Source: Cytophagales bacterium
Lineage (GTDB): Bacteria > Bacteroidota > Bacteroidia > Cytophagales > Thermoflexibacteraceae
Reading direction: 5' to 3'
NCBI GenBank assembly: GCA_013299115.1
Contig: JAAFKA010000004.1
Coordinates: 62,001 to 126,000, forward strand
DNA: 64,000 nt
Every line of letters starts with the position of its first letter. The first letter of the stretch is position 1. The notes below the pieces were generated by a model that made no database searches, was not told the origin of the DNA, and worked only from the letters and a program-made list of their open reading frames with translations. The position numbers and the translations under genes are program-made. This document shows, piece after piece, positions 3,081 through 6,986 of the stretch.

Positions 3081-3494
3081 TTACTTCAATTCTTTTTCTT
3101 CGTATTTAGATGGGCATTTCATCAAGATTTCACTGGCAACAAACACGCCATTTTGGTATTTGCCAATGACTACTACTTTTTCGGATTTTTTGAAGTCTTG
3201 CATAGCAGGTGGCGGATTGTAGCAAACTACTTTCTGAATTTCTTTATTTTCGTCTATCAGGGTGAAAGACAAATAGTTAGCATCTCTTAGTGGCTCGTAT
3301 TCTACGCCTACCACTTCTTTTGCCTCGTTTTTTGTAAGTTCTCCTACAATATGTACTTTGTCTGTTTCTCCATTAGTAGCCATTGTTTTGGCTGTTTTGA
3401 AATTGACATATTGACTTGCATTGCCTGCAGAAGATACAATAATGCCAATGGCAATGGCAATAACCACAATACCAATTAGATGTGATATTTTCAT
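3081..3494 (-). CDS. ccmE: Cytochrome c maturation haem chaperone CcmE, cysteine (CxxxY) type
   Basis: The protein has 137 residues. An N-terminal signal anchor (HLIGIVVIAIAIGIIVS) precedes a single OB-fold domain. The C-terminal motif CPSKY matches the haem-attachment site of CcmE, but the usual His of HxxxY is replaced by Cys. CxxxY variants are known from some archaea and deltaproteobacteria. CcmE carries haem from CcmC/D to the CcmF lyase at the outer face of the inner membrane. None of the other ccm genes is in the window. It is directly upstream of the BamA-like gene and probably in the same transcript. Confidence 0.85.
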   Translation of the reverse strand: MKISHLIGIVVIAIAIGIIVSSAGNASQYVNFKTAKTMATNGETDKVHIVGELTKNEAKEVVGVEYEPLRDANYLSFTLIDENKEIQKVVCYNPPPAMQDFKKSEKVVVIGKYQNGVFVASEILMKCPSKYEEKELK

Positions 3495-3580
3495 TTTTCT
3501 TTGCTGTTTTTGCTTTGCTGCAAAGATATGAAAATAAAACTAAGTCTAATAAAGAGTGGGTAGAATTTATATCTGCTATG

Positions 3581-3702
3581 AATAGAGGTTATTACGATAA
3601 TTTTTGTATAGAAAATTAACTTGTTAATTTTCAGCTAATTGACCTTGCAGTTGGAGGCAACCCCCGCCAAAGGGTACGGTACAAATCGTAATAACCTCTA
3701 TT
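3581..3702. mobile_element. MITE-like element, 122 bp, copy 1
   Basis: The element has perfect 18-bp terminal inverted repeats (AATAGAGGTTATTACGAT at 3581 and its reverse complement ending at 3702). A near-identical copy in opposite orientation lies at 21601-21719. The interior holds TTGGAGGCAACCCCCGCC and a second stem (TTAACTTGTTAA). It contains no coding capacity. It lies between ccmE and the DUF6011-like gene. Element ends are clear. Target-site duplication is not evident. Confidence 0.8.
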
Positions 3703-4196: not shown

Positions 4197-4227
4197 TTTG
4201 TAAAAACAAAAAACCTTCCTACCTTTG
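4197..4227 (+). promoter_or_regulatory. Bacteroidota-type sigma-A promoter of ffs
   Basis: TTTG at 4197-4200, a 19-bp spacer and TACCTTTG at 4220-4227 give an exact match to the Bacteroidota consensus TTTG-N19-TAnnTTTG. The predicted start is about 4-5 bp downstream, at the mature 5' end of the SRP RNA. Confidence 0.85.
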
Positions 4228-4231
4228 CAAC

Positions 4232-4322
4232 GGCAAATCAGTACGACCTGCTCCCTCTGAACCCCGCCAGGGTCGGAAGGCAGCAACGGTGTGAGGTCGA
4301 TGCGGTGCGATATTGGTTTGCC
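4232..4322 (+). ncRNA. ffs: Signal recognition particle RNA, small bacterial (4.5S) type
   Basis: The universally conserved SRP domain IV is present, with the tetraloop and asymmetric loops visible around 4249-4299 (CTCTGAACCCCGCCAGGG, then TCGGAAGGCAGCAACGGT). The ends GGCAAATC and GGTTTGCC pair to close the helix, and a T-run follows at 4323-4328 as terminator. Length about 91 nt is normal for the short bacterial form without an Alu domain. The RNA binds Ffh and directs membrane proteins to the translocon. The promoter at 4197-4227 fits exactly. Confidence 0.95.
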
Positions 4323-4399
4323 TTTTTTGTTTCAAAATTTATTTTATGCTAAACTGCCTTGTTGCAGTTTTTTTTGTGCCTTTTATAGCCAATTATCAG

Positions 4400-4875: not shown

Positions 4876-4932
4876 AAGCACTATAAATAAAAACAAGCAC
4901 TATAAATAAAAACAAGCACTATAAATAAAAAA
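4876..4932. repeat. Short tandem repeat, three units of 20 bp
   Basis: Three near-perfect copies of CAAGCACTATAAATAAAAA lie between the family C array and the terminator of the tRNA-like RNA. Confidence 0.85.
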
Positions 4933-4953
4933 AGGTATGCCAACAGCACACCT
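4927..4953 (-). terminator. Rho-independent terminator of the tRNA-like RNA transcript
   Basis: Read on the minus strand: AGGTGTGC, loop TGTTG, GCATACCT, then a run of T. It follows the CCA end of the tRNA-like RNA by about 45 nt, closing a transcript of about 355 nt that starts near 5285. Confidence 0.75.
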
Positions 4954-4996
4954 CTTTAACCTTAACCAATAAACAACACATAAAATAAACACATGT

Positions 4997-5167
4997 TGGC
5001 TGTAGGGGAAGGAGTCGAACCTTCAAGAGGTGGTTAGTTTTGTTCAGGAAATAAAGCTACAAGGCAAAGGTTACGATGACCTATAACTTTACTTCCTGTC
5101 AAAATTTGTCCCATGCTCCTCGCCCACGAGAACGGTGGGTATGGCTGCCAAATTTCATCACCCTACA
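4997..5167 (-). ncRNA. Unclassified structured RNA with tRNA-like ends (acceptor stem, T arm, CCA)
   Basis: On the minus strand the 5' end TGTAGGG pairs perfectly with CCCTACA near the 3' end, which is followed by G and CCA. A perfect 5-bp T arm (GAAGG, loop TTCGACT, CCTTC) precedes it. After the 5' acceptor strand comes a leucine-type D arm (ATG, loop AAATTTGGCAGC, CAT) and then CCCAC, a 7-nt loop CGTTCTC, and GTGGG. The loop lacks U33, and about 98 nt, including a long hairpin (CAGGAAGTAAAG...CTTTATTTCCTG), sits where a variable arm would be. The total is 171 nt. It is not an ordinary tRNA, it lacks the tmRNA 5' consensus and a recognisable tag, and it is too short for a group I intron-bearing tRNA. 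It has its own promoter and terminator. Confidence 0.6.
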
Positions 5168-5289
5168 ATAAAATTTATCAAAGAAACTGAACAAGTAATT
5201 TGAAAATTTCGCAACTTCGTAGTTGCTTACTATTACTTGTGTTTGTTGCTTTTTAGTTTGCTCATTCTCTTTCTGAATGATTGACAATA

Positions 5290-5321
5290 CAAAGATAATA
5301 GGCAAAATCTATTTTTGCAAA
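5290..5321 (-). promoter_or_regulatory. Bacteroidota-type promoter of the tRNA-like RNA
   Basis: On the minus strand TTTG (5321-5318), a 20-bp spacer, and TATCTTTG (5297-5290) match TTTG-N19/20-TAnnTTTG. The predicted start near 5285 leaves a leader of about 118 nt upstream of the tRNA-like 5' end. The leader can form a hairpin with CAAGTAAT/ATTACTTG arms and an inner GCAACT/AGTTGC stem. Confidence 0.75.
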
Positions 5322-5406: not shown

Positions 5407-5889
5407 ATGGACAAGAATTTGAAAATTGATAACATCGATATCAAGATTTTATCTGAATTGATGAAAAATGCCACGACGCCTTACACCGAAATAGCAGACA
5501 AAATTCACCTATCAGGGGGAACTATCCACGTGAGAATGAAAAAATTGGAAGATATGGGTATTGTGCAAGGCTCGTCTTTGTCTGTAGATTTTAGTAAGTT
5601 GGGCTACGACATTACAGCCTTTTTGGGCATTTACCTCCAAAAAAGTGCTTTGTATGAGCCTGTAACCCACGAATTGGCTAAAATTCCTGAAATCCTAACT
5701 TTGCACTACACCACAGGGGCATACAGTATTTTTGCTCAAATTATTTGCAAGGATACCAAGCACTTGCGGGAGGTCTTACACGATAAAATTCAGAAAATCA
5801 AGGGAATAGAAAGAACTGAAACTTTTATTTCTCTCGAAGAAAAACTCAAAAGACCTGTGCAGTTGCAACCAGATGATTACAAATCATAA
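5407..5889 (+). CDS. Lrp/AsnC family transcriptional regulator
   Basis: The protein has 160 residues, typical for the family. The N-terminal winged helix-turn-helix (DNIDIKILSELMKNATTPYTEIA, then LSGGTIHVRMKKLEDMGIV) is followed by a RAM/ligand-binding domain with the characteristic GAYSIFAQIICKDTKHL strand-helix segment. Such proteins form octameric or larger assemblies that sense amino acids and control amino-acid metabolism. It is a single gene, bounded downstream by palindromes at 5892-5939, and its target genes are not indicated by context. Confidence 0.9.
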   Translation: MDKNLKIDNIDIKILSELMKNATTPYTEIADKIHLSGGTIHVRMKKLEDMGIVQGSSLSVDFSKLGYDITAFLGIYLQKSALYEPVTHELAKIPEILTLHYTTGAYSIFAQIICKDTKHLREVLHDKIQKIKGIERTETFISLEEKLKRPVQLQPDDYKS

Positions 5890-6532: not shown

Positions 6533-6860
6533 ACAACCTCGAAGAGGTTGAACAACAATAGCCCTACGTGAAACATAGGGAATACGACGCTGTCGTCTTG
6601 CAACAACCTCGAAGAGGTTGAACAACAATAGCCCTACGTGAAACGTAGGGAATACGACGCTGTCGTCTTGCAACAACCTCGAAGAGGTTGAACAACAATA
6701 GCCCTACGTGAAACATAGGGAATACGACGCTGTCGTCTTGCAACAACCTCGAAGAGGTTGAACAACAATAGCCCTACGTGAAACGTAGGGAATACGACGC
6801 TGTCGTCTTGCAACAACCTCGAAGAGGTTGAACAACAATAGCCCTACGTGAAACATAGGG
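6533..6860. repeat. 70-bp tandem array, about 4.7 units, hairpin-rich
   Basis: Units start at 6533, 6603, 6673, 6743 and 6813. Each unit holds three stems: ACCTCGAAGAGGT, CCCTACGTGAAACGTAGGG and GACGCTGTCGTC. Units alternate between ACATAGGG and ACGTAGGG, giving a 140-bp higher-order period. Reading frames on the minus strand here simply translate the repeat and are not genes. Confidence 0.9.
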
Positions 6861-6986
6861 ACACAAAGCACGTGAATCTGAAACCCAATCAAAGGCAAAA
6901 CACGTAGATATAAAATTTTAAAGACAAAAAAACCTCCAATTTTCCAAACCTTTTTTCTTATTTTACGTTGCAAAGGCTATCTAAAA

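Follow-up and report, generated by a model that had tools for sequence, protein, structure and literature searches.

A tRNA-like RNA and its transcription unit

The stretch of DNA analysed here, 64,000 nucleotides of a Cytophagales genome (the window), carries on its minus strand a gene for a structured, tRNA-like RNA and, beside it on the opposite strand, a gene for an AsnC-type regulator. The element is real and belongs to a wider RNA family. Its parts and immediate surroundings are as follows.

4924..4979, minus: 3' trailer like the end of the FopS sRNA (26.4 bits against a gathering score of 56)
4929..4957, minus: intrinsic terminator, 3' of the window copy
4999..5167, minus: tRNA-like RNA, U1 to C74 (model R1, 127.5 bits); the CCA runs on to 4997
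5001..5007, minus: acceptor stem, 3' strand CCCTACA; G73 is 5000 and C74 is 4999
5008..5024, minus: T arm, GAAGG TTCGACT CCTTC, seen in the sequence and aligned in the family
5027..5030, minus: variable-arm helix, 3' strand CCTC, partner 5118-5121; covaries
5038..5104, minus: distal hairpin region of fast-changing sequence (fold -25.9 kcal/mol, z -6.24)
5099..5158, minus: 19-codon ORF of the initial annotation, unconserved and thought to be due to chance
5118..5121, minus: variable-arm helix, 5' strand GAGG, partner 5027-5030; covaries
5123..5139, minus: anticodon-type arm; loop CGTTCTC in the window copy, CTGTCTC in the family consensus
5141..5158, minus: leucine-tRNA-like D arm; GG present, no U20a (numbering by eye)
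5161..5167, minus: acceptor stem, 5' strand TGTAGGG, partner 5001-5007; covaries across the family
5290..5321, minus: Bacteroidota-type promoter TTTG-N20-TATCTTTG, read in the sequence; the motif recurs upstream of relatives
5407..5889, plus: divergent AsnC-type regulator, 160 aa (NCBIfam AsnC 155.6 bits, LrpA 78.9)

The acceptor stem, G73, the perfect T arm, the leucine-like D arm and the loop CGTTCTC are all present where the initial annotation had placed them, and so is the long hairpin in the variable-arm position. The 172-nt fold of the element has a z score of -3.32, and none of 200 shuffled sequences folded equally well. Two further features noted at the outset exist in the window and do not extend to the family. 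One is the encoded CCA: CA follows C74 in just 10 of 91 copies. The other is the 19-codon ORF, which is unconserved because the length of the D loop varies by 1-2 nt among copies; a coding role for it was rejected on these grounds. A second copy of the family lies elsewhere in the same genome (G000:C23:160291-160455).

A stand-alone transcription unit had also been proposed, and the sequence agrees, with a predicted promoter and terminator at the places named. The promoter motif TTTG-N17-23-TAnnTTTG occurs upstream of 59 of 138 loci, whereas base shuffling of these regions leaves 0.69 occurrences on average. By eye, hairpins followed by T runs stand 3' of many other family copies. Counted from the end of the -7 box, the window leader is 122 nt long; the family range is 12-139 nt, which places it at the long end. 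The FopS-like trailer also follows several copies in genomes of the window host's family, and 40 nt of it are repeated at one further site of the host genome (G000:C56:205430-205469).

Comparison with known classes bears out the claim that the RNA is tRNA-like and yet neither an ordinary tRNA nor a tmRNA: ARAGORN and Rfam return neither at the element. ARAGORN found no tRNA and no tmRNA across the 64-kb window, the tRNA model (RF00005) gave 40 matches in the host genome without the window element among them, and the element has no Rfam match at gathering scores. In a permissive search its best weak match was FopS (RF04319; E 0.063, 26.4 bits), on the trailer only and too low for membership of that sRNA family. 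The sole Rfam match in the window is a Bacteroidales small SRP RNA at 4224-4327 on the plus strand (68.9 bits). Overlapping ORFs with near-identical repeated peptides at 6564-6973 suggest a tandem DNA repeat.

Among the three origins first offered for the element, an unusual tRNA with an insertion comes nearest, and a tRNA-mimicking regulator is a less favoured possibility. A degenerate tmRNA derivative is unsupported: a normal tmRNA is encoded elsewhere in the genome (G000:C73), the window holds no tmRNA match, the body of the RNA is that of a class II tRNA, and the ORF is unconserved.

Extent and architecture of the RNA family

The RNA family is apparently undescribed, and its members occur in numerous Bacteroidota as well as in some Bacteroidota phages. 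A literature search, conducted outside most subscription journals, brought up no description that we recognised as this family. BLAST in relatives, one of the checks initially suggested, finds the 181-nt element at E 0.1 or better in 40 of 59 genomes (its own included). Copies are often in tandem, and one locus (L013) carries six. When an alignment of 29 copies (A1) was scored for standard pairs in the stated cloverleaf, 696 of 696 cells paired, compared with 49-62% for slid partners, and 9 of the 24 pairs showed two-sided changes, spread over all five helices. In short, the acceptor, the T arm and the remaining tRNA-type helices covary in relatives, as is expected of the cloverleaf of a tRNA. 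When 104 distinct copies from named genomes were fitted to the model, pairing held in 98.8% of 2496 cells (slid controls, 55-63%) and 11 pairs showed both-sided change, in an alignment that leans toward the structure.

Covariance model R1, built from the window element and its relatives, was run on 295 genomes of the class. It scores at least 70 bits in 51 of them, a cut-off chosen after the scores were seen, with matches of 77 to 196 nt. Below the family, scores reach at most 57.2 bits, and among the matches listed lengths are about 80-87 nt, those of ordinary class II tRNAs. One genome tallied as RNA-negative (G184) carries a diverged RNA. The lowest-scoring family match, in G023 (L052), is 77 nt long and has no long variable arm. 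ARAGORN calls this member (L052:5338-5414, minus strand) tRNA-Asp(atc), and its genome also has AsnA; the other short variants without the insert, at L214 and L227, are likewise called tRNA-Asp. A pattern scan of named genomes yielded at least 119 stretches, 80 of which were made into loci. Hosts named among the matches listed include Pedobacter, Mucilaginibacter, Chitinophaga, Hymenobacter, Dyadobacter, Algoriphagus and Neolewinella.

Between the variable-arm helix and the distal hairpin sits a conserved internal loop, approximately GGGAYAAA on one side and CTAAC on the other. The distal hairpin drifts in sequence and length; most copies fold, and some fold no better than shuffles. Its loop reads GRTWGACCA in 90 of 251 distinct sequences. 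The first pair closing this loop is invariant. The second is standard in 66 of 90 sequences, where shuffles give 39 and at most 51, and neither the third nor the fourth rises above the shuffled range. A pairing between a loop TCYC and GGGA of the internal loop was dropped, as by eye it fails in several copies. A mobile element was also rejected, with no recurrent element genes around 61 loci.

In IMG/VR, 99 contigs match the family pattern and 80 became loci. Across these 80, R1 gives 78 matches of at least 82 bits, including one truncated by a contig end, and two lower-scoring matches that are both truncated in this way; there were 127 viral R1 matches altogether, of which a sequence filter retained 77, and 78 rank above the first contig-cut entry. 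Recurrent neighbours include a terminase large subunit cluster (34 loci), and single members of other neighbour clusters were named as portal, PhoH, ThyX, DnaB and head protein. None of the 80 viral loci has an AsnC gene. ARAGORN, run on 20 of the 80, places some copies inside tRNA arrays, and one locus (L221) also has a tmRNA. One phage copy of each of two kinds gave no match to isolate phages, and one bacterial copy gave none to plasmids.

The viral loci hold other structures of this general type. Five of them (L224, L231, L234, L235, L238) have a second kind of tRNA-like RNA, in several copies on some phage contigs. Its ends are AGTCAGG/CCTGACT, its D and T parts resemble those of a tRNA, and where the anticodon arm would be it has a variable stretch. 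A third tRNA-like form, starting CAAGGAGTGGCGAAACGGTAAACGC and with a long internal insert, lies at L289:4516-4660 and L249:7213-7350. By eye, a self-complementary stretch of 6-10 nt follows a GGTTGACCAC motif in phage copies such as those of L253, L222, L234 and L261; it differs among phages (GTTGCAAC, GCGCGC, GCCGGCCGGC) and might resemble a kissing or dimer site. Near the RNA in seven viral loci is a protein cluster with an example (L256:9009-10139, minus strand) judged by eye to resemble a class II glutamine amidotransferase.

The AsnC-type regulator and its divergent slot

Clustering of ORFs around 61 RNA loci gave a single cluster present in at least five loci, an Lrp/AsnC-type regulator found in 38 of the 61. 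All 38 are divergent to the RNA, at 92-338 bp. In the loci from named genomes such a regulator is divergent in 49 of 80; among these loci the gene is split over two frames in L142, its frame overruns the RNA in L165, and it is cut by the locus end in L166. Four regulators compared with NCBIfam score 156, 156, 179 and 158 bits for AsnC versus 58-79 for LrpA and 48-56 for Lrp, all four under the AsnC equivalog cut-off of 227. An AsnC ortholog is present in 50 of the 51 RNA-bearing genomes and in 17 of the 244 others among the same 295, with a cut-off of 163 bits that was fixed after the scores were seen, at the lowest-scoring RNA-bearing genome that has one. Two motifs are enriched in the intergenic regions between asnC and the RNA (n=84), ATTTGCA in 41 against 8.2 expected and AAAGAAC in 23 against 3.2 expected. 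They may be regulator or start-site signals.

Twenty AsnC loci without a 70-bit RNA were inspected, namely the 17 above and three with a lower AsnC score. In five of these 20 an asparagine synthetase occupies the divergent slot, 117-154 bp from asnC: AsnB at L352, L353 and L358 (658, 662 and 941 bits; cut-off 499) and an archaeal-type asparagine synthetase A at L354 and L356 (326 and 332 bits; cut-off 309). The archaeal enzyme structure 3p8t matches L354 at 6.8e-52. Beside AsnC at L364 lies a diverged RNA (3469-3582, minus strand; 32 bits) that keeps the acceptor stem and T arm and has no recognisable anticodon arm. Neither synthetase nor RNA is in the slot at 14 of the 20 loci; in nine of these the neighbour lies on the same strand, and in the other five a divergent gene is spaced differently. 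The divergent gene of L355 gave no match in a family search. A further 15 AsnC loci came from RNA-bearing genomes in which AsnC lies apart from the RNA; 12 of them showed a called AsnC frame, and by eye none of the divergent neighbours of those 12 starts like a synthetase.

A supported set of 34 proteins in the AsnC tree contains all five that are linked to a synthetase, alongside RNA-linked proteins of Pedobacter and Mucilaginibacter. L354, with synthetase A, and L358, with AsnB, belong to one genus, and their AsnC proteins pair as sisters (100/76). The RNA thus often adjoins an AsnC-type regulator where some relatives have an asparagine-making enzyme, and therefore may help to make asparagine. 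In E. coli, asnA is activated by AsnC, less strongly when asparagine is present, and the regulator is described as divergent to its target (passages of PMC4482635 and PMC8707732).

Identity bases, amidotransferase and the proposed role

The loop was recounted by model columns on R1 matches, because the search patterns required TC at positions 35-36 and C at 38, and the loop finder favoured TC. R1 gave 94 matches, and removal of three ordinary tRNAs left 91 copies, 88 of them distinct. In these 88 pattern-free sequences U35 and C36 are universal, C38 is found in 86 and G34 in 72; position 37 is U in 75, C in 9 and G in 4, and never A. The marks of a decoding-competent loop, U33 and a purine at 37, are seen in 62 and 4 of the 88, respectively. 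The set of 251 distinct sequences, two of whose three subsets were picked by a pattern fixing positions 35, 36 and 38, has U35 and C36 throughout, C38 in 249, G34 in 224, U33 in 200 and A37 in one. G73 and U1-A72 are each present in 90 of the 91 copies; the remaining one is truncated at a contig end.

The family consensus loop, CTGTCTC, differs from that of host tRNA-Asp (CTGTCAC) at position 37 only. Among the host tRNAs read, G73 is found in those for Asp, Asn and Ser, A73 in those for Leu, Glu and Gln, and U1-A72 in those for Asn and Gln. By eye, host Asp and Asn tRNAs have U20a, and host Gln tRNA and the family RNA do not. Because host tRNA-Ser also has G73, this base alone is no pointer to aspartate. 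Passages of PMC9976931 list G73, G34, U35, C36 and C38 as strong aspartate determinants, describe G1-C72 and G2-C71 as conserved in bacterial tRNA-Asp, with G1-C72 crucial, and state that U1-A72 confers amidation of Asp-tRNA-Asn and that G1-C72 and U20a prevent it in Asp-tRNA-Asp. At the family level all five strong determinants are present (the window copy has U34). Two other bases of AspRS substrates, G10 and G1-C72, are not: position 10 is A, G or U, and U1-A72 stands instead. The features of a GatCAB substrate, U1-A72 and no U20a, are both found, and the RNA therefore combines AspRS with GatCAB determinants. Charging by AspRS may fail in some copies, since U34 and G33 are found in both copies of the window host, C34 or A34 in Hymenobacter-like copies, and no recognisable anticodon arm in that of L364.

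GatCAB, read from gatB alone, is present in all 51 RNA-bearing genomes versus 75 of 109 others (20/29 and 55/80; Fisher p 5e-7, with ancestry disregarded and the RNA-negative genomes hand-picked). Within mixed families, gatB is found in RNA-bearing versus negative members at 6/6 versus 0/3 (f61), 4/4 versus 0/1 (f56) and 3/3 versus 0/1 (f23); a fourth (f36) has 1/1 versus 2/3, one of the two being just a distant homologue. Tested RNA-negative members of five families (f24, f44, f70, f84, f65) retain gatB, so the RNA implies gatB here and not the reverse. It is likely that gatB is needed also for Gln-tRNA, and the association may in part be due to shared ancestry.

AsnB-like proteins above the cut-off occur in 73 of 80 genomes, AsnRS in 79 and AsnA in three, and these counts do not support the RNA as the sole asparagine source. 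Two of the three AsnA genomes, Hymenobacter-like, bear the RNA in odd copies, with a CTCTCTC loop or of the 77-nt form. Given how common AsnB-like proteins are, a need for the RNA to make asparagine is not supported. Forty AsnB-like proteins from the top of the list (20 RNA-bearing and 20 RNA-negative genomes) are each about 26-33% identical to the three slot AsnB, a level that is no guide to whether they make asparagine.

Taken together, the AsnC linkage, the gene replacement in the slot and the identity bases point to asparagine. Judging from sequence, we tentatively favour a non-decoding tRNA dedicated to the asparagine regulon, whose aspartate charge GatCAB would amidate to asparagine, and we rate this about as likely as not. 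It is also possible, with somewhat less confidence, that a tRNA gone from translation has become a reusable carrier that makes a free amino acid with AspRS and GatCAB, its gene taking the position of one for a metabolic enzyme next to an AsnC-type regulator, with phages carrying copies.

On the carrier model, AspRS would recognise the GUC loop, C38 and G73 and load aspartate onto the RNA; GatCAB would recognise U1-A72 without U20a and convert Asp-RNA to Asn-RNA; and the asparagine would then be released or handed over. Misreading of aspartate codons by a GUC tRNA that carries Asn would be prevented by the expanded variable arm and by position 37, a pyrimidine or G in the family and A in tRNA-Asp. 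When asparagine runs short, transcription of the RNA would be raised by the divergent AsnC-type regulator, in the way E. coli AsnC acts on asnA, and phages would carry the RNA to supply asparagine. The weak points of the model are release of asparagine at a useful rate and the common AsnB-like proteins. One asparagine per charging round would demand fast release, and no deacylase was found.

Next after the carrier comes its main rival, a regulatory RNA of the asparagine regulon that would be charged by AspRS, or compete for AspRS or GatCAB, and so report aspartate and asparagine supply, acting via the variable distal hairpin without itself making asparagine. The AsnC linkage suits such an RNA, as do the AsnB-like proteins common in RNA-bearing genomes and the fast change of the distal hairpin, expected of a target-binding part. 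We nevertheless consider it rather unlikely, for a sensor alone leaves unexplained both the asparagine synthetases in the slot of relatives and gatB in every RNA-bearing genome tested.

Less likely again is a carrier of aspartate, asparagine or another amino acid for non-ribosomal use, for example in lipid, wall or peptide modification. Non-translational tRNAs exist, and the family keeps the bases for charging and amidation and not the decoding features; yet no transferase recurs beside the RNA at the 61 loci, and presence in lytic phages fits cell-wall use poorly. That the RNA serves translation as a seryl or other class II tRNA derivative, such as a missense tRNA, we regard as very improbable. 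Passages of PMC9976931 give a long variable arm and G73 as bacterial serine determinants, host tRNA-Ser has G73, and phage copies can sit in tRNA arrays, but C72 is listed there for serine, where the family has U1-A72. In addition, none of the 88 distinct copies has A at position 37 (all have U, C or G), U33 is absent in 26 of them, and the host genome has a standard tRNA-Asp. Y RNAs mimic tRNA and occur in phages, but a YrlA-type partner of Ro60, or another tRNA-mimicking protein scaffold, is scarcely credible here. TROVE is missing from the host genome and present in 5 of the 25 genomes tested, which weighs heavily against it; the window element and four relatives' loci have no Rfam match, and no Ro60-type gene recurs beside the RNA.

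If the carrier model is right, asparagine would be made on a dedicated RNA carrier in many Bacteroidota and some of their phages, and by a synthetase in others. Amino acid metabolism carried by RNA and set apart from decoding would then have a living example, cells with AsnRS would have a reason to retain GatCAB as well, and phage genomes would gain a metabolic RNA. Should the proposed chemistry prove wrong, there is still a structured RNA family in 51 of 295 sampled class genomes, without an Rfam match, linked to an AsnC-type regulator and directly testable.

The RNA can be set beside several known systems. It resembles class II tRNA-Leu in its long variable arm and in a D arm that is nearly letter for letter that of host tRNA-Leu(GAG), and ordinary tRNA-Leu is the kind that R1 picks up next after the family. 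It differs from tRNA-Leu in having G73 and not A73, U1-A72, an aspartate-type loop and an expanded variable arm. With the bacterial Y RNA YrlA it has in common a tRNA-like module and presence in phages, although the family has no Ro60 link or Rfam match. The Bacillus cereus pseudo-tRNA tRNAOther is likewise tRNA-like and reported to be non-translational (PMC3399842), whereas the organism and the reported phenotype are different. As in passages on E. coli asnC-asnA (PMC4482635, PMC8707732), an AsnC-type regulator is divergent to an asparagine gene, but the target slot in the family has an RNA and not a synthetase. The final comparison is with tRNA-dependent asparagine synthesis on tRNA-Asn, for which passages of PMC4206432 describe ND-AspRS and GatCAB in Deinococcus, Thermus and Bdellovibrio. 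Common to both would be the predicted loading of aspartate on a U1-A72 tRNA, followed by GatCAB amidation. In contrast to that pathway, the family carrier would be a separate, apparently non-decoding RNA with its own gene under an AsnC-type regulator, and its loop is GUC, so ordinary AspRS could serve.
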